Source of the DNA: a virus
Virus record (IMG/VR): IMGVR_UViG_3300034418_004482
Span: 1 to 46,367 of that record
Strand: one strand, 5' to 3'
Length of the DNA: 46,367 bases
Position numbers and translations under genes: made by a program. Positions 2,327 to 43,162 of this stretch are shown here, one piece after another (position 1 is the stretch's first letter; each line of letters opens with the position of its first letter). The notes beneath the pieces are model-generated. The model was not told the DNA's origin and ran no database searches. It saw nothing but the letters and a program-made list of their open reading frames with translations.

Positions 2327-2584
2327 ATGCATAATACAAGAACATACGCAGTAATTAACTTATCAGATATAAGTCTGATAGACTTTTCTCAGGTAGCACA
2401 GACAAGTGCTCAAACAGTTAGAAGAAACCTAGCTCAAACAGAGTTTGTACTAAAGTGGGCAGAAGGACATGACCCTACATTTATTCTTGATGGAAGTGTA
2501 ACTCCTGTGGGTACATATGACCATCATGCAATACTTGAGTTAATGGCTACACCAGCTTGGTCAGAGCCAGATCCTGTAGAATAA
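2327..2584 (+). CDS. Small conserved phage protein between two adhesins
   Basis: An 85-residue protein starting at ATG 2327, ten bases after the LamG gene and five before the BspA-like gene. It reads as one soluble domain with AVINLSDISLIDFSQV near the N-terminus, VRRNLAQTEFVLKW in the middle and an acidic end. No signal peptide or membrane segment is visible. I recall similar small proteins next to tail-fibre genes in marine phages, but no function is established to my knowledge. Its position suggests a fibre accessory or chaperone role, which is inference only. Confidence 0.7.
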   Translation: MHNTRTYAVINLSDISLIDFSQVAQTSAQTVRRNLAQTEFVLKWAEGHDPTFILDGSVTPVGTYDHHAILELMATPAWSEPDPVE

Positions 2585-2589
2585 ATGTT

Positions 2590-23938: not shown

Positions 23939-26900
23939 TGGCAGACGAGAAAGAACTCAATCTTAAAGGGATGGATACTAGTAATCCTGATGGAGAACCT
24001 CAAATAAATCCCATACTACAATCTGCAGAAGAAAAAATACAATCTTCTGATGCTTATATACAGCCTAGAAAAGAGCAACAAGATTTTATAAATAATCTAG
24101 CAAATGCAGGTATTAACGGAGTAACTAATGATACTATTAAGGGAACTAACTTTATGGTAGATCCCGCTGCTAAAGAATTATTTACTTCTGTTGATTTAGC
24201 TAAAGCAATTCCTGATCCTAATGAGCGTGCAGAATATATTAGACAGCACGGCAGTAAAATGACTAGGCTACTAGATCCTGATACTTATGGTATAACATTT
24301 AATAGAGAGATAGGAGATTATGCTGCATTTAGACAAAACAATTATTACAAACAATTAAAAAAGTTTGTAGATGATTTAGATGAAAATCAAGGTTTTTGGG
24401 AATCATTGGGAACTACTTCTGGTAAATTAGCAGGTTCTACATTAAATAATATAGGAGCAAATATTTTAGCACCTATATATGGAGTAGGATCAGCATTATG
24501 GAATTGGGATAGAACTAAAGTTTTTGATAATGATGTAGGCGAGTGGTTTAATAAAAACCAAGAATACATAGACCAACGTCTTGTAATCTACGGAGGATAC
24601 GATTATGCTAAAAACAGAGATAAACAAACTTTCTTTTCTAGAATAGCTGATCATCCTTTTAAATCTATTAACGACGATATTGTTCCCACAGTCTCTTTTG
24701 TTATGGGGGCAGTGGGTGCAGAAATACTTTTAGGAAAAGTAGGATTAAAAGGAGCCATGGGAAGGCCCACTAGAACGATAGCTCGTGCAGGCGCTATTGG
24801 TACAGAAAAATTTTCTAAAGCTTACAGAGCTATTAGAGGTTTAGAAAAATTAGACGACATACAGTCTATGAGAAAGATAGTAAAAGCTACCGATGCTTTA
24901 CAAAAAGGTATGGGTACTATAGGAACTATGTATCGATCAGCTGCTTATGAATCAGCAATGATTGGTAAAGACACTCAAGACAGTACTTTATTACAATCTA
25001 AATACGGATATATAAAGAACGATCCTCAATTGTTTGAGGAATATAAAGAACTTGTTCGCCAAAATACAGATGAGTTTGGTAATCTAGAAATCTCAGAAGA
25101 AGAAATCATTGAAACTATTGCTAGAAAAATTCCTAGAGGAGAACTAGCAATGATGCAACATAATTCTAAGAATGCAGGTACGGCAGCATTCCTTACTAAT
25201 ATTCCATTAGTAGGTGCTAGTTATATGATTCAGTTCCCTAAAATATTTGGATCAGGTTTTAGAAACAATCAAAAGATTTTATCTAGAAGCGGAGTCCTTT
25301 ATGGAACAACTAGAGATGCTACAGGAAAATTAGTTTCAGAATTTGCAAGTGCAACTAAATTAGAAAAATTCTTATTTAAATATGCAATGCCTTCATTAAA
25401 AGTAGGTATTACTGAAGGATTTGAAGAATTTTCTCAAGGTGTTATAGAAAAAGGATATTCAGACTATTGGGCTTCTCCTTATACTAAAAGCGCTAGAGAC
25501 TCTTCTATAGGCTTTATACAAGCTATGGCAAGTGCTTCTAGAAAGTATGCTACATCTATAGAAGGAATTGATTCCATGAGTTTAGGATTTTTAATGGGAT
25601 TCTTAGGGATTCCTATGGTAAAACCTAAAGCAAGTGGTAAGATGGGTCTTGGATGGAGCGGGGGTTTTTATGAAGCAGTAGGAGAAGTATCAGAAAAGAT
25701 TTCTGAAGTAGAAGCTGCTATAAAAAATTATAATGAAGGAATTCAAATGAATGAAGTCCTTAAAAATAATTTCGATGCTTTTAGAAAATCTGTTAGTATA
25801 CAAGAAGATAAAGATCTTGCTCTAGCTAAAGGAGATGTCTTTGGATATAAGAACGCAGAATTTGATGAGCTATTTAATTTTGTAGAAAACAGAATGAGCA
25901 ATGGAATTCTGGACACAGTGTACCAGGATATAGATGCTTTAGAGAATATGTCTCTAGAAGAGTTTAACGAACAGTTTGCTCACAAAGATGAAGCTCTTCA
26001 ATTTACAGAAGAAACTAAAAAGAAGAATTTAGAAACTCTTCGTAAAAGAGTTGACACAATTGTTAAGAATCAAGATACATTTGATTCTATAGCTAGTGAT
26101 AGAAAAACCTGGATAGATAAATTCTTTCTTAAAAATTATAAAGGATTAGATCAATTAGAAGAACTTGACCCAAGTAAGAATCCTGAGCTCGAAATGGATC
26201 AGCAGGATTATATGCGAGCAAAAGCAAACTTTATAAGAAATAAACAAAACGCTCTTAAAAAACAAGCTGTTTATTTATTATCTAGTAGAGACAATCTAAA
26301 AGAAAGAGAAAAAGAACTAAGAGAAAAACTAAATGAATTAGCTCCTAATAGTAATCTAGATGTTTTATATAAAGATGAAAATTATAGAGAAGTACTAGCA
26401 GCTGTAGAAAAAGGAGACGTAATTTATTTTGCACAAGAAGAAGGCAAGAAAAAACTAGATAGTTTTATTAAAGAGATCTTAGGTCAAATAAAAGAAGATA
26501 ATTTTGAATCATATAACTTTAATAAATCTGAAATAGAAGGTATTGTTAAAGATATATTTCAAATTAAAACTAAGCAAGCTAAAGTTTCTGAAATCTATTC
26601 TACTCTCTTTACAAATAAAGGAGCCAATACCTGGTTTAAATTAAAAGAAGATTTTGAAAAACAATTTGCTGAAGAGCTTATAGATGGCATAAAAAAACGA
26701 GCAGAAGAAGCTGTCAATAAAAAACAAGATGGTTCTAGTGTAAAAACAAATCTTGATTCTTATAGAGAACTTTTTGGAAAAGATGTTCCTGCTCATTCTG
26801 AAAATGTTATAAGCCAATTAAATACTGTAAAATCAAAATTATCTGACCCAGAAACTGCTCCATATGAAGAAGTAGTTGAGGCATTAAAAGATGGAAAGAA

Positions 26901-28317
26901 TGCTAATCTAGTAGAACATATTTTTGAAGTTATGGAAAGCCGAGACGAGCTTCCTAATGGATTAGATTACTCATTAGATAATATAGATAACTTTAAAGAT
27001 AACGAGGATTTTAAAACTAGTTTTTTAAATGCATTCAATACTATTCTAAATAACTATGAAGATATAGTTTCAGAGATTTCTAAACGTAATACTAACTTTG
27101 CTAATTCAAAGAAAGAAAACGTAACTCCTGAACCTGTACAAAGTACATCAGAGTTTAAAGACGAGAAGAAAGAAGCTTTTACTATTGATGACATGTTCGA
27201 AGAAGCTGTCGAACAATCTACTAGTGGTAACATTCCTACTATTAACGAAAAGCAATTAAGATTTGACGAAGACGGCAAATTAATAAAAACGCCAATAAAT
27301 CCACAAACAGGTAAACCTTATCCTTGGGAAGATAGTCAAGGTAGACCAACTACTCAAACAGAAATAGATGGGTACGACATGAAGAAAGTTAATAGCCCTG
27401 ATTGGTTAAATAATGAAGATTTAGAAAAATACGAAGAGACAGCTGAATTTAAATTTGCTACTGAGTTAGATGAGAACGGAAATTCTTACGGAGATAAAAG
27501 TGTATATGATGCTGATAACATCGGTATTAATGTATATCATGGAGATACTTTTATAGGAAGACTTCAAACAACTTCTAGAAACCCTAGTGTAAAAGGTTTA
27601 AGAGAGGCTTTATATAATTCTACAAAAGAAACTGACGGAGGATTTATATCATCAACAACTAAAGACTCTATAGAATCTTATGAAGGATATCAAGCTACTG
27701 TTGCTTTTAAAACAGAAACTAAAGAAACTACTACATCAAAGTACGTAGAACAGAAAGATCTGCCTCCTATTATTGTTGAGTATAAAGGAGTTAAATATTC
27801 TACTAATGTAGATTTAGTTTTTGGGGAAGGTGAAGTAATTAATCTAGAAACAGGTAAAGTAGTAGGAAATTATTCTTCTCCTTTAGGACGAGCTGTTGTA
27901 GATGAGGCTATAAAACAAGGATTATATTTCAAACAAGAACAAACTACTACAGTAGATATAGCATCTGATTTAGGATTACTTGATACACTTAAAAAAGGTG
28001 ATAATATTATACATCCAAAATTTGGAAAAGGAACAATAGTTAATATTATTGTAGATCCAAACGGTGTTAGATTTGATCAAGTAGAAATTTTATTTCCTGA
28101 TGAAGGAGGAATAGTAAGAATTTCAAAAACAGGTACATTAGAAGATAGTAAACTAATAAAAACTACTTCGCCAGAAACAGAAGTAGAACAGACTGCTAGA
28201 GAAAAAGTAATAGAAGAAAATTTCGATGATATAATTGAACAGCTTAGTAATAGATTCGGTGAAGGGTACGTTGATATCTTAGACGGCAATAACTATATAG
28301 GAGAAAAACAATGTTAG
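23938..28317 (+). CDS. Giant cargo protein with C-terminal PcrA/UvrD-like Tudor domain
   Basis: A 1,459-residue protein. The N-terminal 450 residues include hydrophobic helices at about 160-185 (NNIGANILAPIYGVGSALW) and 245-265 (VPTVSFVMGAVGAEILLG). The middle (about 560-1010) is charged and helical. An acidic linker region follows. Near the end (about 1350-1415) it reads KKGDNIIHPKFGKGTIVNI, then VEILFPDEGGIVRIS. This fits the GD..H.K.G.GTVV...I.FP..GI pattern of the Tudor-like C-terminal domain of PcrA/UvrD helicases, known to contact RNA polymerase. No helicase motifs are present. It immediately precedes the virion polymerase gene, so a polymerase-binding role is plausible. It ends in tandem stops TAG TAA. 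The domain match is by eye. Confidence 0.65.
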   Translation: MADEKELNLKGMDTSNPDGEPQINPILQSAEEKIQSSDAYIQPRKEQQDFINNLANAGINGVTNDTIKGTNFMVDPAAKELFTSVDLAKAIPDPNERAEYIRQHGSKMTRLLDPDTYGITFNREIGDYAAFRQNNYYKQLKKFVDDLDENQGFWESLGTTSGKLAGSTLNNIGANILAPIYGVGSALWNWDRTKVFDNDVGEWFNKNQEYIDQRLVIYGGYDYAKNRDKQTFFSRIADHPFKSINDDIVPTVSFVMGAVGAEILLGKVGLKGAMGRPTRTIARAGAIGTEKFSKAYRAIRGLEKLDDIQSMRKIVKATDALQKGMGTIGTMYRSAAYESAMIGKDTQDSTLLQSKYGYIKNDPQLFEEYKELVRQNTDEFGNLEISEEEIIETIARKIPRGELAMMQHNSKNAGTAAFLTNIPLVGASYMIQFPKIFGSGFRNNQKILSRSGVLYGTTRDATGKLVSEFASATKLEKFLFKYAMPSLKVGITEGFEEFSQGVIEKGYSDYWASPYTKSARDSSIGFIQAMASASRKYATSIEGIDSMSLGFLMGFLGIPMVKPKASGKMGLGWSGGFYEAVGEVSEKISEVEAAIKNYNEGIQMNEVLKNNFDAFRKSVSIQEDKDLALAKGDVFGYKNAEFDELFNFVENRMSNGILDTVYQDIDALENMSLEEFNEQFAHKDEALQFTEETKKKNLETLRKRVDTIVKNQDTFDSIASDRKTWIDKFFLKNYKGLDQLEELDPSKNPELEMDQQDYMRAKANFIRNKQNALKKQAVYLLSSRDNLKEREKELREKLNELAPNSNLDVLYKDENYREVLAAVEKGDVIYFAQEEGKKKLDSFIKEILGQIKEDNFESYNFNKSEIEGIVKDIFQIKTKQAKVSEIYSTLFTNKGANTWFKLKEDFEKQFAEELIDGIKKRAEEAVNKKQDGSSVKTNLDSYRELFGKDVPAHSENVISQLNTVKSKLSDPETAPYEEVVEALKDGKNANLVEHIFEVMESRDELPNGLDYSLDNIDNFKDNEDFKTSFLNAFNTILNNYEDIVSEISKRNTNFANSKKENVTPEPVQSTSEFKDEKKEAFTIDDMFEEAVEQSTSGNIPTINEKQLRFDEDGKLIKTPINPQTGKPYPWEDSQGRPTTQTEIDGYDMKKVNSPDWLNNEDLEKYEETAEFKFATELDENGNSYGDKSVYDADNIGINVYHGDTFIGRLQTTSRNPSVKGLREALYNSTKETDGGFISSTTKDSIESYEGYQATVAFKTETKETTTSKYVEQKDLPPIIVEYKGVKYSTNVDLVFGEGEVINLETGKVVGNYSSPLGRAVVDEAIKQGLYFKQEQTTTVDIASDLGLLDTLKKGDNIIHPKFGKGTIVNIIVDPNGVRFDQVEILFPDEGGIVRISKTGTLEDSKLIKTTSPETEVEQTAREKVIEENFDDIIEQLSNRFGEGYVDILDGNNYIGEKQC

Positions 28318-28349: not shown

Positions 28350-31300
28350 ATGGCTTGTAAGTATTGGTACGACGGTAATTGGCGAAGTGAGGAAGAGTTT
28401 AAATCTATTCTTAATAATGGTTTATTAGATCAGCTATTAAGAGGTGAAGCGATTTCTCTAAAAGAGTTTCAGTTAGATGAAACTAAAATAATCAACAAAC
28501 CTAAAGAAACTGTACAGCAAGCTCCTGTAAGAGTTAGAATTAAAAGAAAGATTCAAAGAAATCTTAATGTTGGTACAGATCCACAAAACAATGGAGAGCC
28601 TTTAAAAAATAATCCTGCTGTTTTATTAAAAAAAGCAGCTGATGCTAGAGGCGATAAAAATAATGAACTACTATTAGTTATTAAAACTATTGATCGTGTT
28701 AACATTGGACAAGATGGACAAGGAGATACAGTCATGAGTACTATTCATACAGGGAGAGCGGGGTCAGAAAAAGCAAAAGCATTAAGAGAAAAACTAGAAA
28801 ACTCTAAAGTAAATCTCAGTGAAAGTTTAGAACCTGGATATGTTTACATGTTAGTTCCTTCTGCATATGGTTTATATCCTGTTAAGTTATTTACCCATAA
28901 GATAGCAGATACAAATGATTTTGACACTGTAAAAACTAAACTAAAAGAATTACAAGAAGCTACTAATATTGATGATATCAAAAAAATTAGAGAAGTTCTT
29001 GAAGATATTACTTATAGATTTAATATTGAATACAAAAGAGGCAATACTAAAAAAGATTCTTATTTCGAATTTAAGTGGACAGAAGTAGAAGGAGAAGTAA
29101 TTGTCCCTCAAGAAATAAAAATTCCAGGAGATCAAATAGATGCAGCTATTGATTTTTTAGGAAAAAGAATTAGAAAAATAGATTTTGCTAGAATCAACGA
29201 AGGAAACTATAATCAACAAGTTGCAGAAAGCGGAGCTATTACTACTGACTTATTTCATGAAGACGGTAACTTCTTTCATTCAAGTTCTTTCTTTTTAGAA
29301 ACTTATCAATTAAGTGAGTCTGAGAAAAAAGCTTATGAGCAGCAAGTATTAGACTTTGATAAAAGTGATGAGAAAAATTTCAATGAGGAATTTGGTCCTA
29401 CATCTAACGAAGCTTATGAGCCTAATCCTAATCAAACTAGTACTAAGAAAGACGAAGCAGAATACTTTGATGATCAAATACCTCCCGATGATTTTGAATT
29501 TGAGTTTGATGAAGAGTTAGCACTTCTTTCAGCACAAGCTACAGAAGAAGGAAAGAAACAACAAAAAGGAGAACCAGTAAAAAAAGAAGAGCCAGGTGAA
29601 AGAGCTCCGACAAGAGAAGAGATTATAGACTCTGACCAAGAATTATCTGCACAAGATCTTGATGATATAATAAAAGCTGCAGAAGAACAAGGCATCTCTG
29701 CAGGTGTAGCAGCAATGGAAGAAACTAGAAGTAATGAAAGTACTCTTCTTGATTCAGAATCAGAGACTGGTGACGATATAGATACTGATGTATCTTCTAG
29801 CGATGATATAATAGGAGATCCTTTTGGAGATAGTAATCTTAAAACAAAAATGGGCCCTAAGATGGACCCTGAACTTGCTAAAGAAGATGCTAAGAAAGCT
29901 AGAGAACAAGGATTAGAAACTCTTAAAAGAATATTAGGAGAGTCTTTTAAAAGACAGTCAGGAAAGAAAGGCACTGTTAGAGTCATTAAAGATTTTGATT
30001 CTTTACGCCACTACCTTCCTAAAGAATCTTTTGAGATGCTGCAACAAGCATTAAAAAACGGAGATGAGTTATATGGATTATTTACTACTGCTGCAGTATT
30101 AATATCAGAGTTAGCTCCAGCAGGAACAGAAGCTCACGAAGCATTTCATGTTATTTTTAATTTAGTTCTGCCTATAGAACAAAGAGTTAAAATCTTAAAT
30201 GAGATCTTTTATAAGTATCAAGAAGAGATTCCTTTAACAAGAAAAGAAGTTACTCTAGAAGACGGTACTAAAGAAGTTCAATATGTTAGACCTACTTTTA
30301 TTGAGTTAGAAGAATTCTTAGCAGATAAGTTTATGGCTTATGAACAAAGCCAAGAAGTTGATAAGCTTAAGCCTGTAAGCAAGCAACCTGTCCCTGAAGA
30401 TAAAAGAACGGGGCAACAAAAAACTAAAGATATATTAGCAGGTAAAGAAAATTTTAAAGAGACTAATGCTTTTTTTAAAGGTCTTTCTAGAATGTTACGA
30501 GTTTTCTTTAAAAAGAATAAAGTTCTAAACATAGATAACTTATTTGAGAATATAAACTTAGGAGTGTATGCGGATTCTATAAAATTTAAAAACACTGTAT
30601 TAAAAAGATCTATTAGACAATCTATCGGACAATCTGTAAGAACTACTGCTCCTAACAGAAAGTATATAAATCCAGTTGAGAAAAAATGGGCGTTAAGATA
30701 TTTTAACAGTAAGATTAAAAAAGCCATTGAAGGATTCCGCCAACAATTAGACCCAGAAAATAAATTATCTGTACCTGAAATAATAAATTTAGTAGGTAAG
30801 AAGTCTAAGAACTCAGGTCCTCATATTATATTTAGTAATGCTATTACTGATGTTGTTCGAGATATAGCAGTCGCAAAACAACTTCTTGCACAAGCAGAGG
30901 CAGCTGGAGATACTAAAAAAGTTGCTAAGTTTAAAAACTTAATTCATCACTTTAGTAAGTTCTATAAAATCATAACTAATAATCAAAAGATTGTTAGGAA
31001 GAATCCAAAAGGTAGAATAGAATTTATGAAGTCTTCTGATTTATTAGAACAGTTTAATAGATTCTTAAAAAGTAATGAAGGTATTGAAATTAGTTATGGA
31101 GGATTTGAAGCAGAGAGTAGATCTCCTCAAGAAGGCACTAACGGTCAAGTTACAGAACAAGATTATATAAATGCTATTGAAGAAGGAGAAGATACTCCAG
31201 ATAGAGTAGCACAGATAAATAGTATTGAAAGAAATCCTAAGCAGGGAATGAAGCAACAGCTTATTAGTTTCTTTGCTAATATTCCTAAATATAATTCTGA

Positions 31301-34300
31301 TGGTTCAAAAGCAATTTCTCCTTTTGGTATTCAAGATGTAGAAGATTCTAATGTAGTATTTGCTGCTTTAGTATCTAAAGTAGCTAATAGTTATACTTTA
31401 GAAAACTTTGACGCAAAACTAGCTACTCTAAATAAACCTTGGAAACAAGATGTTATAGATTTATTTGCTCAGAATCCAAGACTAAGAACATTGTTCTTTG
31501 CCAATTTTGCTAGTAAAAACTTTGCAGAGTTTGAAAGTGTCTATGAAGTAAATGGAGAATTTAGAGTATTTAGTTCTAACTCTAAAACTATCAAAGATAT
31601 TATTTCAGAAGATCTTATAGCTAACTTCTTATCTAGTACTAACTCATTATATAAAGTAGGTAAACAAGATGCTCTTTGGACAGATAATATAGACGCAGCT
31701 AAAGCCAAAGCTTTCTTAGATGGTTTACTAAAATTAGATTTTTTATATAGACAAAATGATGTTAGTGCTGATGAAAAAGTAGCTGAAAAAAGTGTAGACT
31801 TTTTTGAAAACGGAAAATTCTTTAAACTACTTTCTGATCACTTAGCTACTGTAAATCTTTTCTTAACTCCTGAACAATTAGATAAAATCTATAATAGTGG
31901 AGGAGCAAAATTCTTATATAAAAGAGGAAAGATTGGAAATCTATTACGTGTTCTCCAAGAGGTAGGTAAAAAACTAGTTGGAACAGATAGAACAGCGATG
32001 GAAAGTCGAACTGTTGTTGGCGAAGACGGAAAGAAAAGAACAGTTAAGACTCCTAAATATAAAAGAGACGCAAAAGCAAGAGTTAATCCATTTACTAAAC
32101 TAACTCCTGAAACAGATATTCAGTACGGAAAAAGTAAAGCTTCAGGAAAAAGTTTAGTACAACAATTAGCAGAAGCTATAGAGCCTGCACTAGACACCGA
32201 ATTAGTTTCTAGTTTTAGAGGTATAGGAGGTAAAACTAAGTATAACATTATTCTTTCAGGACAGATTAATAAAATGTTAGAAGAAGTTAAAGATGAAGAT
32301 AGTCTTCAGAAGCTTATAGATAATGTAGCAGGAAATGATTTATTAGTAAGTAACTTGCCTTTCTTACAAGATTTAAAAAATGACGACGGTTTAAGAAATA
32401 ATCTTAAATCTATTATATTAGACGGACTTACTAGAAAAGGACAAAACAAAGCTGTTACTTATGGTAAGATGTCTGATATAGAATTAGAAGCAACTTCTTT
32501 TGGTTTATATTATAGAAGAGGTAAAAGAGAATACCAACAAGGTAATGTGGGTATTAAATTAGGTATACCTTCAAACTCTCCTACTGCCCATTATTTAAAA
32601 GTAAAGAGACTTAGTAAAGATGAAATTATAGATAAACTTACAGATACTGCTATCGCAGAAATGGAAAGAATGAAGTTTATCAAAGGCTTGGAAGAACAGT
32701 ATAAAAAAGAAAAGAAAGAAAATAAAGATGCTGTTCCTCATCCATTATTATTAAATAAGAACTATGTAAAAAGAGGAAAGAACTTTCAATTACTTACTTT
32801 TTTAAATAAAGTTCCTGCTAAAAATCTTAAAACTAAACAAGGTATTAAAAAAGAAATTCAAAAATTCTTTGAGTTTAATTTAGAAAAAGATACTTTCTTT
32901 AGACAACAATATCTTAAATATAAAGAATCAGGAATTGTTGAAGGAAAAACAGCAGAAGGATTAATGACATTTAATCCTAATATTTTAGACAAAAGTCTAG
33001 AAACTACTCAAGCACAAAACGAAGTATTTATAGATTACCTTATGAATACTTTTTATTATAATGCTCAAACAAATGTTTTATTTGCAGGAGATCCTAGTTT
33101 TTATAAAGGTACTACAGATTATCAAAAACGTTTTAAGCAAATCTTTAGTCCTGGTACATACACTACTTTAACAGGAAGTTATAGCGCTATTATTTTAGAA
33201 GACTCGATGGTTCCTACCTCTAAAGAAAATCTAAAACATATCAATGATATTATTGATAAGTCTAATATGACTCCTGTAGAAAAAGAAGCATTGAAAATAA
33301 TGTGGAAAGAAAAGGCTAATGCTAAAAAAGTAGGAGATCAAAATAATGAATCAGATGGTGGTACTTTTGTATCTTTAGATTTCCGTAAAAAAATATTAAA
33401 AGGTTTAGGAGAGTGGGGAGAAGCCCATGATAAAGCCTATGATAGAATTAAAAAAGGAAAAGAAACTATAGAAGATTTAAGAATTATAGATCCTCCTGCA
33501 TCTCCATTAAAACCATTTACATTTACACAAATGTATGTTGATGGTGTAAGAGTTCCTATGCAGATTAAGAACTCTGAAACAGTACTTACTAAATCTTTTG
33601 CTCTTAAAAAAGATAAGCAAGGTAATCTAGTTTATCCTAAACTTGCTGCAATATATGAAGATATGGAAAGAGGCGCATATGAAGTAGCTCTTTTTGAATC
33701 AGCTGTTAAAGTAGGAGGAATAACAAATGGAAAAGATAGTAGGTTTACTCACTATGAAAAGCAAGCTGACGGAAGCTACATACCTTCTGTAGGATATGAT
33801 AGTGTTAAAGTATTTAATTTAGATATATCTGATTACAGAAAACAGCAAGAAACTCCTGCTCACCATATTGATGAAAGAAGTAATTTTGGATCACAGCTAA
33901 GAACTCTTATTACTGGTGATATAGCAATGGACCAGGATTATGATTTATTTATAGGCGATACTAGAACTTCATTAAAAGGATATGAAGTAGTTTCATTATA
34001 TCAAGATATTATTTTCGACGACTTAAAAGAATCTTTCGAGTCATTAGAAAAAGATATGGTAAATCCTGACGGTACTCTTAATTATGTAAAGCTGATTCCT
34101 TTATTAAGAGAACATGCTGTTGAAAGAAATATGGGAGACCAATATCTTCAAGCTATTTCTCCAGTAGAAGTCACTGTTAATGATGCATCATTAGGATCAA
34201 AAAAAACAATTACTACAGCTTTGCCTTTATTCCATCCTAGAATTTTATATCAAACAGAAACTCTTTTGCATTCTATCTTTAAAAACAATGTAGTTAAACA

Positions 34301-37300
34301 AAAAATTAAAGGGGGAGGGGTAATTAACACGCCTTCTTACGGTGTAAGTACTCTTCAAAGAGAAGAAGATGCAGATCTTGTAGGAGAAAGATACCATCCT
34401 AAATTAAAAATTGAAGATGGTAAAATTATTTGGGAAGTATTAATGCCTCATACATCAAAGAAATTTTTTCCTACTAAAGACGGAGAAGTTGACTTTGAAT
34501 ACATAAACATGTATGCTTCTGAGCTATTAGAAATTATAGCTAACAGGATTCCGACGGAAGATAAATACTCTATGTTTAATATTAGAATTATAGGATTTAC
34601 TCCTCCGTCTATGGCTAATACTATTATAATGCCTCCTGAAGTAACTACTATTGCAGGTCTTGACTTCGATATTGATAAATTGTATTTCTTATCTAAACAT
34701 TTTAGAGTTATAGATAATATTCCCAAAATAACTCAATACTACAGTACTATAGATAACCAAGAACAAGCAAATGATCTTGCTGAAAATATTTATAGAAATA
34801 AAATATTAATTAAAAAATTTGCAGAGGATACTATAAAAAATGAAAAAGAAAGAGAAGAGTTTTTAAAAAGAGTAGAAACTTCAATACAAGAAGTAGCTCT
34901 AGCCACAAAAGATAAAAATCGTAGCCTTTCAGATATTAAAAGAGAAATTAGAGAAAGTGAAAGAGAATTAAAAAAGTCTAAACAATTAAATACTGAAGAT
35001 GCTAAAGCTCTAAAAAAAGAACTTCAAGAAACAATCGATTCTTTTTATAATATTTTAAATGGACAAGAATGGGACGAAGAGCTTGTTGAAAAAAGTATAG
35101 CGCTTCAAGAAGCAGAAGAAGGTAAAAATGTAATTATTGATGTAATAGCTAGTGCACTTCTTGATGCTAAAAATCTTGGCATAAATATATCAAGTTACAA
35201 TACTAGAGCAGCTAGAGATAATATGAAAATAAATATTATGAAGTCTATTCTAGAAAATAGAAATACTGCTGCTGCAATTATTAATCCAGGTAACTTTGAT
35301 TCTTTAAAATATGCAGGTGCTAGAATTAGATTATTAAAAGCAGGCAAAACTAAAGAAGCTAATTTAAAAGGAAAAGAATTATTAGCAGCTGCAGATAAAC
35401 TAGATGATGATGCCGACTTTAACATTGCTTATCCTTCTACTCAATTAGAGTTATTCCGACGTAACATGGACGGTAACGATCTTATTGGTATTATGGCGAA
35501 TCATAATACTCACCATGCTAAAGCTCAGTATACAAATCTTAAATTAGTAGACCAATTAGAATTTAATAAACAAACTTATCAAGCATTAAATCAAATTAGA
35601 AGTAGAACTGGTAAAAGAATTTCAAGAATACTTGCGACTAAATTAGCAGCTGTTGTGGATAATGCGAAAGAACCTATTTCAGCATTCTTAAACTTCAACA
35701 TGTTTACTGCTAATGTAGTAGCACTTGCAGATAGACTTGGTGTCGACGAAGCCTTTATGTTTGCTTTACTAAATCAGCCTGCAATATTAGAACTAACAAA
35801 TAGAGTTCAAAATGAACAAGGGTCTATGAGTAAACAAAATCTTGTTTCTCAAATAAAGAAAGAGATTATAGCTAATCTTCAAGAACAGATTCCTAGTGGA
35901 ACTACTGTGAAACCAGTAAATATAAAAGACTTAACTACTGAGATGTTAGAAAAAACTCTAAGTGGTAAGAAAGGTGTTAAAAATGCTTTTATCCAAAAAG
36001 CAGCACTTGCTTTATTTGAAGAATTAGATACTATAGCAGAAGAATTATCTAGAGGAATACGAGCTTCTAAAACAGATTCTGTTACTGCTTACGGATCTAC
36101 TGGTGCAGCTGACTATGTATTCTTAAACAATCAAACAAGAATATTAGTAGACAATCAAAGAGGAGCTAATAAAATATCAGGTTTAGAAGAAATTTTCTTA
36201 TATAAAAATCCTAAACAAAAACAAAGCCCCGCATTTACAACATACGGTTTATATAAGCCTATTGGTATTTACGAAAAGGTGTTTCCAACTATTGGTAATA
36301 TAAATGAAAATAATCCTACAGAAACTAAGTTCTCTCCTTTAGGATTAATTAAAGAAAAGTTTACTGAGTTTAAAGGTACAGGAGTTTTAAGAGAAGAAGA
36401 AGCGCAATTAATTAATAGTAACTATTTAAATTACATTGCTAGTGAATTTAAGTTTTTCCACCACGATCAGATAGACGATATATTAAAGAAATTCCCTGGA
36501 GAATTTTTAACGTTTAAAAGAAACTTACCTGAGAATTCTCCATTTAAACCATTAATGGACCAACTTCATATAGTACGTCCAGATTTAACTTCTCCTATTA
36601 GCAGAATTCAATTCTATCAAACAGGAAAGTTTGCTGAAGATATAGAAGCATTATCAGATTCTTGGGAAAGAATGTTATTAGACCCTGATCCTGAAATTAG
36701 AGAGATAGCAAAAAAATTAATAAAGTATTCGTTCTTTGCTAACGGATTTAATTTCGGTCCTTATACATTTGCTAATGTTATTCCCGTCATGTTCTTTACT
36801 AATGAGTATCAGTCTACTCAACCAGACTTAATGATACAAGATGGAGGAGGACAGCTTACTATGAACGAACTTCTTCAGAAAAGATTAATGGTAGAGAATT
36901 ATGATTCTGAGTATAATGGAAGATTTATAGAACAATTTATTCGTAACTATTCTAATCGTCATAATTTTATTCCTACTGCTAAAATAGATAGAACATTATC
37001 AGAAGAAGATGCTGGGAATTACCTGACTCCTACAGGAAGAATTACATCAACTTTCTACGAAGCAGATGCTAATATAATAAAAGACTTAAAAGGCAATTTA
37101 GTTGTCATAGGTAATTATGCTACAACTAATCTTAGAGACAGATTCGACGAACCTGTACCGTATATAAAAGCATATGATACTAAAATAAATAATCATTATG
37201 CAACTTCTATCTATAAATTAACAGATACAATTATAGAATACAATAGTAATAACCAAGAAATTGTTGTTTATAAATATAATAGAGTACCTAATTTAGGGAT

Positions 37301-38693
37301 TAGTAATGTCGCTTTAGAATTTAATGCATTAGGAGCAATAGAAAACTCTGTATCTCCTGCACCAGACACTATAAAAGACGGCAAAACAGAAGCTCAAAGA
37401 TTAGCAGACCAAGCAGTCGATAATGAAATCACACAAAATATTAAATCAGCAGAGGGAGAAGTACCGAGTACAATTAAACCTAAAGTAGATTTAACAAAGA
37501 AAACAGCTCCAGTAGATCTTTCTACCGATACAGAAATGTATAGACTTCAGTATAAAGATGCTGAGTTTATAGCAGAGATTAAGAATGGGAAATTCCAAAT
37601 ATTCAATGCTAAGAATATGGAGCAAAAGTTTGTAGATAAGACTCCTGAAAATGACCCAGTGGTTAAAGAACTTTACGAAATGTTTAAGCTAAAGGTTTCA
37701 GGTATCTCAGAGACGCTTGTAGACAATTATCATGATAGTGTTTCTTGGGAACAATTAGCTGTGAATTTTGATAGAAGCTTTTTTGATCCAGAAAAAATTA
37801 AAGGCAGTCAAGATGTACTCAGAGCTTTTTGGCCTTATCTAGAAAAAGACTCTAATATATCACAGCTAGTTACTAAACTAGGAAGAGTTAATTTTGAAGT
37901 TAAATTTTTAAATAATGAAGAGTGGGCAGAGCAAACAAGAGGTAGAGGTACTTACATGTTCTACTATAATGACACAATATATTTAAATGAAGAAACAATA
38001 CGACAAGTAGATAGTGGAGCATTTTATTTATATGCTTTCCTCCATGAAGTAACCCATGCTTTTACTATTGATTTAGTTGTTAAAGGAAAACAAACTACTG
38101 TAAAAGATGGTAAAAGAGTTACTCAAGATATTATAGACAAAGAGTTAAGACAAAAGAATACTGAGCTAACAAATTTATTTAAGGAAGCAAAAAATTTAGA
38201 TAAAAAGAGTGAATCTCCGAAGCAAGATCTTTACGGTTTTACAGATGAATTTGAATTTGTAGCAGAAATTTTTACTAATCCTGACTTTGCAAATCATGTT
38301 AAAAGCTTAAGAGCTCCACAAGAATCAAAAAGTATTTGGCAAAAATTTATAGATTGGTTAACTTCGATATTTTATGAAGTACCTAAAAAAGGTAGAGGAG
38401 AAGAAATTTACGAAGAATCTATGGAACTTATAAACGCAATAGTAGAAAATGTAACTAAGGATTACAGAGAAACGATACAGCGTGAAAGAGAACAGATAAG
38501 TGAAGGAGATAAATGGTTAAGAGATAACCAAAATTATATAGTAGAAGAGATATATCAAAATGGTCCAAGTATAACTAATTATCTTTATGGAATAAAAACT
38601 GCTAACGGTACATCTACTAGAGATATAATGACTCAACAAGAATGGGACACTCTTTCTCCTGAAGAAAAATATAATGTTATAAAATGTAACTAA
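28350..38693 (+). CDS. Giant single-chain virion RNA polymerase with two zincin motifs
   Basis: A 3,447-residue protein. Residues 2066-2109 run RIPTEDKYSMFNIRI ... GLDFDIDKLY. This matches the beta-prime double-psi barrel pattern (R.PT ... ADFDGD) and the DFDID catalytic loop of crAss-like phage polymerases such as phi14:2 gp66. Asp2105, Asp2107 and Asp2109 should bind catalytic magnesium. Two metallopeptidase-like motifs flank this: HEAFH (His596-His600) with EEFLADKF near 654-661, and HEVTH (His3232-His3236) with EFVAEIF near 3302-3308. phi14:2 gp66 is about 2,180 residues, so this chain is much longer. The polymerase probably enters the cell with the DNA and transcribes early genes. It joins the next gene by TAATG. 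Polymerase call strong; protease activity unproven. Confidence 0.88.
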   Translation: MACKYWYDGNWRSEEEFKSILNNGLLDQLLRGEAISLKEFQLDETKIINKPKETVQQAPVRVRIKRKIQRNLNVGTDPQNNGEPLKNNPAVLLKKAADARGDKNNELLLVIKTIDRVNIGQDGQGDTVMSTIHTGRAGSEKAKALREKLENSKVNLSESLEPGYVYMLVPSAYGLYPVKLFTHKIADTNDFDTVKTKLKELQEATNIDDIKKIREVLEDITYRFNIEYKRGNTKKDSYFEFKWTEVEGEVIVPQEIKIPGDQIDAAIDFLGKRIRKIDFARINEGNYNQQVAESGAITTDLFHEDGNFFHSSSFFLETYQLSESEKKAYEQQVLDFDKSDEKNFNEEFGPTSNEAYEPNPNQTSTKKDEAEYFDDQIPPDDFEFEFDEELALLSAQATEEGKKQQKGEPVKKEEPGERAPTREEIIDSDQELSAQDLDDIIKAAEEQGISAGVAAMEETRSNESTLLDSESETGDDIDTDVSSSDDIIGDPFGDSNLKTKMGPKMDPELAKEDAKKAREQGLETLKRILGESFKRQSGKKGTVRVIKDFDSLRHYLPKESFEMLQQALKNGDELYGLFTTAAVLISELAPAGTEAHEAFHVIFNLVLPIEQRVKILNEIFYKYQEEIPLTRKEVTLEDGTKEVQYVRPTFIELEEFLADKFMAYEQSQEVDKLKPVSKQPVPEDKRTGQQKTKDILAGKENFKETNAFFKGLSRMLRVFFKKNKVLNIDNLFENINLGVYADSIKFKNTVLKRSIRQSIGQSVRTTAPNRKYINPVEKKWALRYFNSKIKKAIEGFRQQLDPENKLSVPEIINLVGKKSKNSGPHIIFSNAITDVVRDIAVAKQLLAQAEAAGDTKKVAKFKNLIHHFSKFYKIITNNQKIVRKNPKGRIEFMKSSDLLEQFNRFLKSNEGIEISYGGFEAESRSPQEGTNGQVTEQDYINAIEEGEDTPDRVAQINSIERNPKQGMKQQLISFFANIPKYNSDGSKAISPFGIQDVEDSNVVFAALVSKVANSYTLENFDAKLATLNKPWKQDVIDLFAQNPRLRTLFFANFASKNFAEFESVYEVNGEFRVFSSNSKTIKDIISEDLIANFLSSTNSLYKVGKQDALWTDNIDAAKAKAFLDGLLKLDFLYRQNDVSADEKVAEKSVDFFENGKFFKLLSDHLATVNLFLTPEQLDKIYNSGGAKFLYKRGKIGNLLRVLQEVGKKLVGTDRTAMESRTVVGEDGKKRTVKTPKYKRDAKARVNPFTKLTPETDIQYGKSKASGKSLVQQLAEAIEPALDTELVSSFRGIGGKTKYNIILSGQINKMLEEVKDEDSLQKLIDNVAGNDLLVSNLPFLQDLKNDDGLRNNLKSIILDGLTRKGQNKAVTYGKMSDIELEATSFGLYYRRGKREYQQGNVGIKLGIPSNSPTAHYLKVKRLSKDEIIDKLTDTAIAEMERMKFIKGLEEQYKKEKKENKDAVPHPLLLNKNYVKRGKNFQLLTFLNKVPAKNLKTKQGIKKEIQKFFEFNLEKDTFFRQQYLKYKESGIVEGKTAEGLMTFNPNILDKSLETTQAQNEVFIDYLMNTFYYNAQTNVLFAGDPSFYKGTTDYQKRFKQIFSPGTYTTLTGSYSAIILEDSMVPTSKENLKHINDIIDKSNMTPVEKEALKIMWKEKANAKKVGDQNNESDGGTFVSLDFRKKILKGLGEWGEAHDKAYDRIKKGKETIEDLRIIDPPASPLKPFTFTQMYVDGVRVPMQIKNSETVLTKSFALKKDKQGNLVYPKLAAIYEDMERGAYEVALFESAVKVGGITNGKDSRFTHYEKQADGSYIPSVGYDSVKVFNLDISDYRKQQETPAHHIDERSNFGSQLRTLITGDIAMDQDYDLFIGDTRTSLKGYEVVSLYQDIIFDDLKESFESLEKDMVNPDGTLNYVKLIPLLREHAVERNMGDQYLQAISPVEVTVNDASLGSKKTITTALPLFHPRILYQTETLLHSIFKNNVVKQKIKGGGVINTPSYGVSTLQREEDADLVGERYHPKLKIEDGKIIWEVLMPHTSKKFFPTKDGEVDFEYINMYASELLEIIANRIPTEDKYSMFNIRIIGFTPPSMANTIIMPPEVTTIAGLDFDIDKLYFLSKHFRVIDNIPKITQYYSTIDNQEQANDLAENIYRNKILIKKFAEDTIKNEKEREEFLKRVETSIQEVALATKDKNRSLSDIKREIRESERELKKSKQLNTEDAKALKKELQETIDSFYNILNGQEWDEELVEKSIALQEAEEGKNVIIDVIASALLDAKNLGINISSYNTRAARDNMKINIMKSILENRNTAAAIINPGNFDSLKYAGARIRLLKAGKTKEANLKGKELLAAADKLDDDADFNIAYPSTQLELFRRNMDGNDLIGIMANHNTHHAKAQYTNLKLVDQLEFNKQTYQALNQIRSRTGKRISRILATKLAAVVDNAKEPISAFLNFNMFTANVVALADRLGVDEAFMFALLNQPAILELTNRVQNEQGSMSKQNLVSQIKKEIIANLQEQIPSGTTVKPVNIKDLTTEMLEKTLSGKKGVKNAFIQKAALALFEELDTIAEELSRGIRASKTDSVTAYGSTGAADYVFLNNQTRILVDNQRGANKISGLEEIFLYKNPKQKQSPAFTTYGLYKPIGIYEKVFPTIGNINENNPTETKFSPLGLIKEKFTEFKGTGVLREEEAQLINSNYLNYIASEFKFFHHDQIDDILKKFPGEFLTFKRNLPENSPFKPLMDQLHIVRPDLTSPISRIQFYQTGKFAEDIEALSDSWERMLLDPDPEIREIAKKLIKYSFFANGFNFGPYTFANVIPVMFFTNEYQSTQPDLMIQDGGGQLTMNELLQKRLMVENYDSEYNGRFIEQFIRNYSNRHNFIPTAKIDRTLSEEDAGNYLTPTGRITSTFYEADANIIKDLKGNLVVIGNYATTNLRDRFDEPVPYIKAYDTKINNHYATSIYKLTDTIIEYNSNNQEIVVYKYNRVPNLGISNVALEFNALGAIENSVSPAPDTIKDGKTEAQRLADQAVDNEITQNIKSAEGEVPSTIKPKVDLTKKTAPVDLSTDTEMYRLQYKDAEFIAEIKNGKFQIFNAKNMEQKFVDKTPENDPVVKELYEMFKLKVSGISETLVDNYHDSVSWEQLAVNFDRSFFDPEKIKGSQDVLRAFWPYLEKDSNISQLVTKLGRVNFEVKFLNNEEWAEQTRGRGTYMFYYNDTIYLNEETIRQVDSGAFYLYAFLHEVTHAFTIDLVVKGKQTTVKDGKRVTQDIIDKELRQKNTELTNLFKEAKNLDKKSESPKQDLYGFTDEFEFVAEIFTNPDFANHVKSLRAPQESKSIWQKFIDWLTSIFYEVPKKGRGEEIYEESMELINAIVENVTKDYRETIQREREQISEGDKWLRDNQNYIVEEIYQNGPSITNYLYGIKTANGTSTRDIMTQQEWDTLSPEEKYNVIKCN

Positions 38694-41600
38694 TGAGTAA
38701 ATGTATAAATAAATCTCATCCTGAATTTAAACAGCTGTTACTAGATACAGAAGTAAATCCTCTTATAGTAGCTGCTAAAGTTGGTATATGGATGGAACAA
38801 AATAATACAGAAGATTTTCCTACTATAGAACAAATAGGTCTAACTTCTATACAAAATACTCAAGAAAAACAAGTATTATATCAAGGAGGTCCTTCTAGAG
38901 CTAGAGCTGTTATAAAAGAAGCTCGTGATATATTCTTTAATGAAGTATATCAAAAAGATTTATCAGAAAATGATGTCAGAAGAATTAATACTAAGCTTAG
39001 ACAAATTTCTGATAGAATAGGGGATCAGCCTTGGAGACTTAAAGAAAAGTTTGATGGCACTTATTATATAGCAGGTTATAAAAATGCTAATGTAGCCCAG
39101 AAAGAAGATACTTACTACTCACCATATGCTAACGGTATGTTTAGACAAATGAGTGTTAAGAATACTGAAAAAGCAAATGCTAAATTAGATAGAATATTAG
39201 GAGCTTGGGCAAGAAAACATGGAGTAGCTATAGAGTCTTTAAAATCTGTGATGGAAAAATTCCCTAATAGATTTGAAGAAAATGCTTTAGGAGTTGCTGA
39301 CTTTATGAATTCTCTTATCGCTATTGCTGATGGAGCTAAGATAGATACTCTTGCAGAAGAAGTCGCTCACTTTGCTATTGAGATGCAGTTGATGAGCCAA
39401 GGGGAGGCTAATTATATTTTAGGTCCTACTACTATAAAACAAGCTTTAGAACAAGTCACAGAGACTGAGACTTACGCACAAGTAAAAGAAGAGTATAAAG
39501 ATATCTATGAGAATGAAGAAGACTTTAGAAAAGAAGCTTTAGGTAAGATATTAGCAGCTGAAATAGTTAATCAGTTTAAACAGACTGATCAATTTATTGA
39601 AGAAGATGTATCAGGATTCTGGCAAAGTCTTAAGAAAGTATGGCAAGATTTTACTGCCTGGTTAGATTGGGCTCTAGGAATAGATAGTGCAGGTAGAAAT
39701 GATATAGAAAATGTTGTTATTCCTTTGGCTAGAGATATATTAAATCAAGAGCAAGTAGGAAAATATGAAAAGTTTGAGTCCTATAAACAGCTGAAGAAAC
39801 ACGAAGGCAAAAGACCTTTTACAAAAGATGATATTAAATATCAAAAAGAAAAAAGAAGCGATGAAAGGAAACTGACTGAAAAAGAAAAGTTTCTTAAAAA
39901 AGTAGAGCAGCAGCTTTTAAAGAAGAAACAAAGACTTAAAGAAGCTCAAAGAGATACTAGAAGTCAGAAAAGTAAAAAAGCAATTGCTGCAGTTACAGCT
40001 GAGATAGAAGGTCTACAAAGAGACCTTGAAAATGCTAGGTATAATACTGGTATTACTAAATGGATTTACTCTTCTAAAGAAGAAGTATATGAAATATTTA
40101 AAGTATTAGATTCTGCAGAAAGAGGAGACGTTACTTTAGGTGGACGAACATTATATAATTATGAGCTATTCTTAGATAGTTATAATTCTCTTATCAATAC
40201 TTTGATAGAAGATGTAAGAGTATCTACTGTTACTAGAGAAGAAGGAGCAGATATAGAGGAAGCAGTAGCTAGTTTAAGAGATTTAATAACTAAATCTAGA
40301 ACCAGATTAAAACCTTTAAGATTAGAAAAAAATAAAGAAAAGTTTAGAGAAATAAATAGAACACCTGATGGTGAAGTTATAGATAAAGATTTTGATGAAG
40401 AGAGTGCTTTTGAAGCTATGCAAACAAAATTCTTTGATTGGTTTAAATATTATACAGGTAACTTTAAAAATGCTAAGTCAGCTGTTATTAGATCAGTACA
40501 TAAATTTATTTATGATGCTTATAATAATGTTAAAAGATTTGCCGTAAGTACTGCTAGAGATGTATTAGCTTCCCAGACTTTATTCTTAAGTAAATATAAA
40601 CAAGAAGATCTCATAGAGATGGACGGCAATAAGCCTACCCATTATATGGTAGCAGATTATAACTATTCTAAATTTTATAAAGAAAGAGAAAAGTTTAGAA
40701 AAAAAGTAGCTGAGAAATTAGGTTACGTAGACCCAGAAACTGGAGAAGGAGATCCTAGTTTAATAAATAAAAATTTCTTTACAGCAGAACAAGCTGCCGC
40801 ATATGCTAAGATGTGGGAAGGTTGGTATATTAAAAATGCTGTTAGTATTAAAGTAGATGCTAAAAAAGATATAATAAATGAAGAAGGCAATTTAACTACT
40901 CAAGTATTAATGAAACTTAGAAATTCAAATAGAGATCCTATTTGGGTAAATGAAAGTGATATAGCTGAGAAAAAAAAACAAGGATATTATATCAGACAAG
41001 AGTATAAACAAGTTCCTAACGATAGTTATAAGAATAAGAATTTTGCAAAATTAATGAAAGATGAGAAATTCAGACTTCATTATGAAACTTTGATGAGAGT
41101 AAAAAGAGAAGCTCTTGCAAAATTACCTGCAGGATTTCAAACGGATCAGTTGCTTTACATGCGTCCTTCTATGATGAAGAGTACTTTAGATAGATTATTT
41201 AGAGCAGACGGAAATATTCTTACTAGAATAAAAGAAGTTGCTAGAGAAGGAGTAATGATTGAACAAGATGATACTCAATTCGGTGAGTTAAGAGAACTTG
41301 ATAAAGAAACAGTTCCAATTTACTTTACAAGAGAATTAGATGACCCTTCTAAATTAACTACTGATTTCGGAAGAGCTTTTGTAATGTTTGCAGAGATGGC
41401 AGAGAATTTTTATCAGATGACAAAAATTTCTCCTGATGTAAACAACATACTATTTTCTTTAAAAGATAAAGAATACTATAGTGTTAGAAGAGGAAACATA
41501 AAAGAAAAGGTAGCATCTGAAGCAAGTATGGAATACGCTACTGTTAAAGAAATGATTGACAGTTTAGTTTATGGTCAACAAAGGCAGACTGCTGAGTATA

Positions 41601-43162
41601 CTATACCAGGCACAAATAAAACTGTAAGTATTACAAAACTAACATCAGGTATAGCTTCATATATTAGAAACAATAACCTTGCATTTAATGTGCCTACATC
41701 TTTAGCAGGTTACATTAAAGGATCTATCGATTCTATTATAGAAGGTTCTACTGGTTTATATATTACTGCTGAAAGTAAAAATTGGTCAAGAATAGAATTC
41801 TTAAAAGAAATAGGAACTGTTATAGGAGAAATAGGGTCTAATAAACAAAGTAGCAAGATGCATCTTCTTAACCAGGATATGGGAGTTGTTAGTTTAGATT
41901 CTATGTTATATGAGACAGATAAATCTAGGTTAACAAAAAAATTAGCTAGCGGAGATTTAATGTATGTTACATATGCTACAGGAGATTACGGATTAAAATC
42001 TAGAATCTCTTTAGGAGTATATGATAACTACAGATTATACGATGGCAATTTTATTACTAAAGAACAATTCTTAAGAAAAACAGCTACTAAAAAAGGAATA
42101 GAATACGGAAAATCTAGAAAAGCCGACAAAGCCCATGAGAAATCTGTACAAAAAGAATGGGAAGCTCTTAGAGAAAAAAGTCTATACAATGCTTATGAAG
42201 TTGTTAACAATCAATTGAGGATAAAAAAAGGCATGAAACAGTACATTAATGATGGACTATTAAATGCAGTAAAGGGTAAGATAGAATATGTTAGTAATAA
42301 TATAGACGGTTTACTAGGAGCTACTGATAAAGGTAAGCTAGCAAGAACTTCTGCAGGAGACTTCCTTTTAATGCACCGTGGTTGGTTCGTTAACTTAATC
42401 GATGCTAAGATGCAGACTCAAAAAACAAGTTGGATAACAGGTGAAGAAGAAATAGGACACTATAGAGCATTTTTTGGACAATATCTTCCTAGTGTTTTTA
42501 AAGCTATGAAAGGAGGAGATCTTATGGCAGCACATTCTGTGTATGACGGAATGACTAAAGCACAAAGAAGAGGAGTTAAAAAATCTGTAATAGATATGTT
42601 TGCTGCAATACTAGTCTCGTTCTTAGCAGGATTAGCACAGAAGTTTGCAGACGAAGATGATGAAGATCAATTTGTTATACAATTTACTTCATTAATCATG
42701 AACAGGGTATTAATGGAACAGTCAGCTCCTTGGAGTCCTGCAACTCTTACAGACCTTATAGATGAGCCTGTGGTAGGTACAAAAATGCTTAAAGGTTGGA
42801 CAGACCTTACAGATTTATTTGATGGTACAGCAATTGAAAGTGGACCTTACGAAGGGCAATCTAGAAGATCTAAATGGGCTCAAAAGAAAATACCTTTTGG
42901 ATGGAAAAATATATATGAATTTCAATATCCTGGAGAGAAAAACAAATTCTACAAGCAATTAGTAGGTGATGGATTCTTTGCTAACGTTCTTTCTAATGAC
43001 CCTGAAAAGCAATACTCTCTTATAAAATGGTTAAAGCAAACTTTAGGACCGTCTCCTGTTAGAAATTGGGATGCTTATACAGAAGGAGAAAGAGAGGAGA
43101 TTCTATTACAAGGTATAGAAGAGCTAGAAAATGAACAAGACATGTATAATGGGTGGAACTAG
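38693..43162 (+). CDS. Giant cargo protein with degenerate zincin motif, 1,489 aa
   Basis: Starts on the polymerase gene's TAATG. The N-terminus (KCINKSHPEFKQLL ... VAAKVGIWME) resembles starts I recall in other crAss-like giant proteins. At 222-226 it reads EEVAH inside TLAEEVAHFAIEMQ, an HExxH motif whose first His is replaced by Glu. KEALGKILAAEIV about 50 residues later parallels the third-ligand segment of active zincins. The rest is mainly helical, with coiled-coil-like stretches near 390-450. A hydrophobic segment (IDMFAAILVSFLAGLAQKF) lies near 1298-1316, then an acidic DEDDEDQF. It ends the plus-strand giant-gene run with TAG. It is likely ejected with the polymerase; it may be a partner or a non-catalytic zincin scaffold. 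Confidence 0.65.
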   Translation: MSKCINKSHPEFKQLLLDTEVNPLIVAAKVGIWMEQNNTEDFPTIEQIGLTSIQNTQEKQVLYQGGPSRARAVIKEARDIFFNEVYQKDLSENDVRRINTKLRQISDRIGDQPWRLKEKFDGTYYIAGYKNANVAQKEDTYYSPYANGMFRQMSVKNTEKANAKLDRILGAWARKHGVAIESLKSVMEKFPNRFEENALGVADFMNSLIAIADGAKIDTLAEEVAHFAIEMQLMSQGEANYILGPTTIKQALEQVTETETYAQVKEEYKDIYENEEDFRKEALGKILAAEIVNQFKQTDQFIEEDVSGFWQSLKKVWQDFTAWLDWALGIDSAGRNDIENVVIPLARDILNQEQVGKYEKFESYKQLKKHEGKRPFTKDDIKYQKEKRSDERKLTEKEKFLKKVEQQLLKKKQRLKEAQRDTRSQKSKKAIAAVTAEIEGLQRDLENARYNTGITKWIYSSKEEVYEIFKVLDSAERGDVTLGGRTLYNYELFLDSYNSLINTLIEDVRVSTVTREEGADIEEAVASLRDLITKSRTRLKPLRLEKNKEKFREINRTPDGEVIDKDFDEESAFEAMQTKFFDWFKYYTGNFKNAKSAVIRSVHKFIYDAYNNVKRFAVSTARDVLASQTLFLSKYKQEDLIEMDGNKPTHYMVADYNYSKFYKEREKFRKKVAEKLGYVDPETGEGDPSLINKNFFTAEQAAAYAKMWEGWYIKNAVSIKVDAKKDIINEEGNLTTQVLMKLRNSNRDPIWVNESDIAEKKKQGYYIRQEYKQVPNDSYKNKNFAKLMKDEKFRLHYETLMRVKREALAKLPAGFQTDQLLYMRPSMMKSTLDRLFRADGNILTRIKEVAREGVMIEQDDTQFGELRELDKETVPIYFTRELDDPSKLTTDFGRAFVMFAEMAENFYQMTKISPDVNNILFSLKDKEYYSVRRGNIKEKVASEASMEYATVKEMIDSLVYGQQRQTAEYTIPGTNKTVSITKLTSGIASYIRNNNLAFNVPTSLAGYIKGSIDSIIEGSTGLYITAESKNWSRIEFLKEIGTVIGEIGSNKQSSKMHLLNQDMGVVSLDSMLYETDKSRLTKKLASGDLMYVTYATGDYGLKSRISLGVYDNYRLYDGNFITKEQFLRKTATKKGIEYGKSRKADKAHEKSVQKEWEALREKSLYNAYEVVNNQLRIKKGMKQYINDGLLNAVKGKIEYVSNNIDGLLGATDKGKLARTSAGDFLLMHRGWFVNLIDAKMQTQKTSWITGEEEIGHYRAFFGQYLPSVFKAMKGGDLMAAHSVYDGMTKAQRRGVKKSVIDMFAAILVSFLAGLAQKFADEDDEDQFVIQFTSLIMNRVLMEQSAPWSPATLTDLIDEPVVGTKMLKGWTDLTDLFDGTAIESGPYEGQSRRSKWAQKKIPFGWKNIYEFQYPGEKNKFYKQLVGDGFFANVLSNDPEKQYSLIKWLKQTLGPSPVRNWDAYTEGEREEILLQGIEELENEQDMYNGWN

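Follow-up and report, generated by a model that had tools for sequence, protein, structure and literature searches.

How giant virion proteins that are wider than the tail channel leave the particle in order and reassemble is a question raised by crassviruses and N4-like phages, and it is posed here by a viral DNA of 46,367 nucleotides (IMG/VR record IMGVR_UViG_3300034418_004482, positions 1 to 46,367; hereafter the window). An open reading frame on its plus strand (28350..38693) encodes a chain of 3,447 residues, consisting of the tail end of a gp47-type protein, a gp50-type polymerase, and a zincin domain from the gp49 side. The frame is unchanged in three other contigs (100% identity) and recurs in one more at 66–68% identity, so an assembly accident is excluded. 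An initial annotation of the sequence had recognized the catalytic core of a crAss-like virion RNA polymerase in this chain from an RIPT motif followed by DFDID at residues 2066–2109. Analysis of this catalytic stretch (R2066-I-P-T to D2105-F-D-I-D2109, DPBB-A; 34545..34676, plus strand) confirmed that the motif is real. In an alignment of the window chain with 65 relatives, in which identity falls to about 17–20%, the residues R2066, P2068, S2074, G2103, D2105, F2106, D2107, D2109, and K2110 are invariant in all 66 sequences, and the combination of DxDxD with an upstream R-x-P in one chain is, as a sequence pattern, far beyond chance. PF00623 had no match within the window.

To identify the polymerase, relatives and profiles were required, since searches of Pfam, PHROGs, and the PDB sequences with the whole chain gave no match. 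With the central third of the chain, tblastn retrieved 111 records, nearly all of them crAss-like, with E values down to 2e-65, and the catalytic region matched crAss001 gp50 in tblastn with an E value of 2e-65. The 66-sequence profile matched the phi14:2 polymerase (PDB 6VR4) with an E value of 3e-248, covering 6VR4 residues 776–1984, and sequence comparison extended the region alignable to crass polymerases to residues 1406–2991 (32565..37322, plus strand). The polymerase core (residues 1480–2679; 32787..36386, plus strand) was modeled with AlphaFold2 (pLDDT 89.5, pTM 0.89), and 6VR4 was the only PDB match of this model in Foldseek with an E value below 0.001 (E 1.9e-36; 1,227 aligned columns; TM 0.65 by query), a match of the predicted core as a whole and not of individually superposed barrels. 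An N4-type virion RNA polymerase was considered and rejected, as the core matches 6VR4 instead of a T7-like single-subunit fold and no T7-like polymerase is among the 50 Foldseek matches listed for the core model. The gene lies in a transcription block, flanked by genes of gp47 and gp49 type, and a longer identical contig carries, outside the window, genes for a TerL, a portal, and a major capsid protein of crass type (phrog_6681, 6547, and 11589), with the TerL being nearest to that of phi14:2 (33% identity). Together, the motif, the fold match, and these crass-type genes identify a crassvirus virion RNA polymerase, and sequence, profile, and predicted fold agree in placing the chain in the phi14:2 gp66 family of two-barrel polymerases. 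Neither of the two conditions named in the initial annotation as refuting its crAss-like polymerase applies, since the core model matches 6VR4 in fold and the profile and sequence searches hit crAss polymerases, which supports that reading. It is thus a new member of an already known family. The phi14:2 polymerase is packaged in the virion and acts on early genes.

The window encodes further proteins of crassvirus type or of likely phage function. A crass-type stabilization or muzzle protein (8970..13277, plus strand; phrog_28748) corresponds to phi14:2 gp082, and a homologue of the cargo protein C1 (crAss001 gp45; 17271..20657, plus strand) shows 37–40% identity over about 120 residues and has no terminal cysteine. 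Between these two genes lies that of a 688-residue protein with a glucosaminidase domain (15155–17221, plus strand; PF01832, E 5e-20), likely a cell-wall enzyme of the virion. Two tail-fiber-like proteins (157–2316 and 2557–4344, plus strand) have similar starts (SINFDKKLGF and NINFNKTLGI) and are possible tandem paralogues, and a radical-SAM protein of the spore photoproduct lyase family (45287–46150, minus strand; PF20903, E 6e-25) is likely a phage DNA-repair gene.

The length of the chain was then accounted for by comparison with its relatives. The phi14:2 polymerase comprises 2,180 residues (CDS gp077 in GenBank), making the window chain longer by 1,267 residues, close to the excess of about 1,250 given in the initial annotation; as stated there, the additional domains lie on both sides, the part alignable to phi14:2 being preceded by about 700 residues and followed by about 430. 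Its description as unusually large does not hold, as polymerase chains at the viral-contig loci surveyed range from about 2,000 to 6,057 residues, which makes 3,447 residues middling, and a review gives crass polymerase chains of up to about 6,000 residues (PMC10136315). The region around residues 554–664 matches the C-terminal part of the gp47-type protein, which is a separate protein in crAss001 and Dulem virus 41, while the C-terminal zincin domain of the window chain is found in phi14:2 close to the N-terminus of the gp49-type protein. The extra length therefore consists of the edges of both neighboring proteins, gained by shifted gene boundaries. The three cargo proteins of the window (gp47-, gp50-, and gp49-type) add up to 1,459 + 3,447 + 1,489 = 6,395 residues, and the total block length across loci is about 4,900–7,000 residues, independent of the number of genes and of where they are split.

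Both edges carry a zincin-type domain. The zincin-like domain Z1 (residues 554–664; 30009..30341, plus strand) has its homologue in the domain at the C-terminal end of crAss001 gp47 and shows the HExxH motif (H596-E597-A-F-H600) with a glutamate as third ligand on a later helix (E654/E655). Glu597 is invariant in 46 sequences and both histidines are present in 40 of them; the other six (L052, L061, L062, L073, L078, and L081), which group in a single clade and whose complete chains have about 5,500 residues, show WEAFR or WEAMR in place of HEAFH and keep the glutamate. The Z1 profile weakly matched the Pro-Pro endopeptidase of Clostridioides difficile (Zmp1/PPEP-1, E 5e-4), and a Z1 model of moderate quality (pLDDT 71) gave no match in Foldseek. 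Z1 is not new, since crAssphage gp45 is annotated in GenBank as 'fused to zincin protease'. The second domain, Z2 (residues 3200–3362; 37947..38435, plus strand; H3232-E-V-T-H3236 and E3302), matches Z1 by profile and is homologous to the zincin that follows the N4 polymerase (hhalign probability 97.6%, score 94.4, compared with at most 17.1 in 60 column shuffles); its matches in the PDB are to internal virion or ejection proteins (E 2e-10 and 1e-9). As the N4 polymerase is T7-like, one zincin family stands beside two unrelated virion RNA polymerases, which suggests a common job in packaging, ejection, or takeover. The literature searched, whose scope did not include Drobysheva 2020 and Yutin 2018, makes no mention of this link between Z2 and N4. 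The phi14:2 structural protein gp081 (L008 20360–22141, minus strand) has two HExxH motifs of its own (HEFTH and HEFIH).

Two zincin-type domains with intact HExxH and downstream glutamate flanking a polymerase are what a polyprotein cut by its own proteases, before packaging or after injection, would be expected to have. N4-like polymerases are always fused to a zincin and self-processing has been proposed for them, as for other zincin-bearing polyvalent proteins, among which P1 DdrB is processed (Iyer et al., 2017, PMC5512222). Against cleavage, Z1 is retained in crAss001 gp47, a chain separate from the polymerase that leaves nothing to be cleaved from it, the zinc histidines are replaced in the six giant-chain loci, many loci have no Z2, the N4 polymerase with the homologous zincin is reported to be packaged unprocessed (PMC5512222), and the block keeps a total near 5,000–7,000 residues however its genes are split. 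We consider such processing improbable, and the earlier suggestion that the chain is possibly processed found no support in these comparisons.

Analysis of the cysteine residues, which the initial annotation had not mentioned at the chain ends, revealed a different kind of relation among the three chains. The window polymerase has only two cysteines, Cys3 (codon 28356..28358, plus strand) at its N-terminal junction and Cys3446 (codon 38685..38687, plus strand) at its C-terminal junction. The sole cysteine of the gp47-type chain (1,459 residues; 23938..28317, plus strand) is its last residue, Cys1459 (codon 28312..28314, plus strand, directly 5' of the stop), and that of the gp49-type chain (1,489 residues; 38693..43162, plus strand) is Cys4 (codon 38702..38704, plus strand). 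The trio thus has four cysteines in 6,395 residues, each at most four residues from a junction end, compared with 54 in the 8,037 residues of the other window proteins, and the chance of random placement giving one cysteine at every junction-facing end, all within eight residues, is about 3e-10. The same places are occupied in phi14:2 (gp078 C1797; gp077 C3 and C2179; gp076 C3). The pattern coincides with the chain junctions of relatives, suggesting that the three giant proteins are tied end to end for injection.

To examine this pattern in other crassviruses, the architecture of each locus was scored with gp47- and gp49-region profiles, blind to cysteine, and cysteines were counted in the last nine residues (C-terminal end) and in residues 2–8 (N-terminal end) of the polymerase chain. 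A C-terminal cysteine was present in 63/65 polymerases with a separate gp49-type chain and in 0/11 fused ones, and an N-terminal cysteine in 17/17 polymerases with a separate gp47-type chain and in 0/6 fused ones. On the partner side, 64/65 separate gp49-type chains start with a cysteine and all 17 separate gp47-type chains end with one. The gp47 profile covers only part of the set, leaving 22 loci undecided at that end (about half with a cysteine), and the stronger test is therefore that of the C-terminal junction. The gp49 alignment being too diverse for a scan of the collection, a fresh sample of 39 new loci, with near-identical ones removed, was drawn with a second polymerase alignment; it gave a C-terminal cysteine in 29/30 polymerases with a separate gp49-type chain and in 0/5 fused ones, and a cysteine start in 29/30 gp49-type chains. 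The outer chain ends carry a cysteine in 0/27 and 1/55 cases, and 9–10% of other open reading frames of at least 200 residues have a terminal cysteine. Polymerase interiors contain 0.085% cysteine compared with 0.49% in other frames of at least 500 residues, and the single-chain giants L052, L055, L062, L073, L075, L078, and L081 (5,005–5,711 residues) contain none. Comparison of about 120 loci thus shows, at the level of sequence, that each junction-facing end has a cysteine, usually the only one nearby, that the outer ends lack it, and that fused chains lose it. This junction rule is not mentioned in the literature searched, which again did not extend to Drobysheva 2020 and Yutin 2018.

The deviations from the rule are of several kinds. 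Three exceptions (L025, L068, and L186) are seemingly broken or truncated frames, the gp49 start of L017 is uncertain, and L168, whose gp47-type chain ends in KANKYKKK, stays as the one exception. The reading of L056 as one long chain was rejected as an artifact of TAG read-through, and under the standard code this locus obeys the rule. crAss002 gp33 (L111 15106–27843) is probably annotated 32 residues too long; a start at M33 gives MSC, like its relatives. At least one internal cysteine occurs in about 30 of 66 polymerase chains, and the Intestiviridae chains (crAssphage and crAss002) keep the end cysteines and have up to 16 internal ones.

The stop of the polymerase and the start of the gp49-type gene overlap by one base at 38693, an arrangement in which start choice or codon context could yield terminal cysteines, as could shared ancestry. 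Such an artifact is mostly refuted and extremely improbable, as the pattern also holds at C-termini, where no start is chosen, and at boundaries that lie in different domains. It holds as well for crAss001 gp47, which is encoded on the opposite strand and still ends with a cysteine, so the nucleotide context of the junction is no explanation. On a FastTree phylogeny of 852 columns, independent pairs differing in architecture followed the predicted direction in 4/4 and 4/4 cases (8/8), as did the fresh sample. The junction specificity would also suit cysteines acting as nucleophiles that join the chain ends by a peptide bond (protein splicing or ligation), and crass genes are reported to contain inteins (PMC7886860). 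The ends, however, hold a few residues only and no intein halves, and ligation requires a single cysteine, which begins the second chain, instead of one on both sides of the junction, making this reading very unlikely.

A cysteine at every inner end with few or none elsewhere points to a reversible covalent string, and we infer that the end cysteines form disulfides. Head-to-tail bonds would link the C-terminal end of gp47 to the N-terminal end of gp50 and the C-terminal end of gp50 to the N-terminal end of gp49, turning the three cargo chains into one string packed inside the capsid. The string would be threaded through the narrow tail with its chains in set order, the host cytosol would reduce the disulfides to release separate subunits, and the freed polymerase would refold and then carry out early-gene transcription. 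With so few other cysteines, wrong bonds would be avoided, an argument already made for the N4-like enzymes, which lack cysteine. Four N4-like virion RNA polymerases (L101 and L116–L118), those of N4 and of three further Schitoviridae, have 3,352–3,741 residues with zero cysteines, for which the reason given is that disulfides would block threading (PMC3915230). In crAss001, gp47, gp49, and gp50 belong to the virion cargo and have to get through constrictions narrower than 50 Å, and inter-subunit disulfides occur in the crAss001 virion in tail and portal-vertex proteins (PMC10172136). On the simplest reading, crassviruses employ a clean threading chain like that of N4, but divided into pieces, with a single disulfide at each junction. 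For the window, we judge it fairly probable that its polymerase is the middle catalytic chain of a crassvirus trio, with a length set by moved gene boundaries and end cysteines that tie an ejection string by disulfides. Somewhat better than even is our confidence in the general form, in which crassviruses distribute a polymerase of some 5,000–7,000 residues over one to three genes, with break points that vary, and reconnect the pieces after translation by end-cysteine disulfides for ordered feeding through the tail and reduction in the host.

Several observations count against the disulfide string. Virion assembly takes place in the reducing environment of the cytoplasm, and the gut lumen lacks oxygen. 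Published maps do not resolve the chain ends, and internal cysteines occur in the Intestiviridae and in nearly half of the polymerase chains. The chief rival to a disulfide is that the end cysteines share a metal (zinc or iron–sulfur) or form a non-covalent docking pair, holding a tight complex in both virion and host. It predicts the identical residue pattern, and it would be hindered neither by a reducing cytoplasm nor by the anoxic gut, where crAssphage and crAss002 keep their end cysteines; some N-termini even share C-[IP]-N-x-x-H-P, whose histidine is a possible ligand. A metal clasp is countered by there usually being one cysteine per end with no common second ligand, and by the lack of a conserved histidine, aspartate, or cysteine beside MACKYWYDG-type starts and KKLC- or TIC-type ends, while the cysteine scarcity of most environmental chains better fits avoidance of wrong disulfides. 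We therefore regard a metal clasp or docking pair as rather unlikely. Thioredoxin genes lie near the polymerase block in several Intestiviridae (L110, L112, L113, and L115), perhaps for reduction of the end cysteines and perhaps for nucleotide metabolism. The disulfide string, if true, would account for the freely moving gene boundaries in the block, and from it follows a direct prediction for the viruses that are most abundant in the human gut.

Known systems share some features with the window trio and differ in others. The zincin-bearing polyvalent proteins (PMC5512222) are likewise large, injected, multi-domain proteins with a zincin next to a polymerase, although that text is without crass phages and describes no cysteine rule. 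The coliphage N4 polymerase gp50 (3,500 residues) is similarly a giant ejected enzyme with a homologous C-terminal zincin and no internal cysteine, but it has a T7-like fold, is a single chain, and lacks end cysteines. In Suoliviridae cr53_1 gp57 (4,645 residues) and crAssphage gp45/gp44, the polymerase is also fused with block proteins and zincins and has junction cysteines, whereas the fusion points differ from those of the window (gp47 with gp50 in cr53_1, gp50 with gp49 in crAssphage) and internal cysteines are more numerous. In PhicrAss001, Z1 is part of gp47, whose gene is on the opposite strand, a search for Z2 gave none, and gp50 has one internal cysteine, but this phage shares with the window a homologous polymerase in gp50 (blastp E about 1e-79), the same cargo trio, and the same places of the end cysteines (gp47 C2339; gp50 C5 and C2404; gp49 C5). 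In phi14:2, gp66 (6VR4; gp077 of KC821624) differs in length (2,180 compared with 3,447 residues), with core identity of about 20%, and its Z2 is on the next chain, with Z1 not found there, but it resembles the window polymerase in its two-barrel single-chain core, its DFDID motif, its place as the middle of three chains, and its cysteines, which are located only at residue 3 and at the last residue but one.
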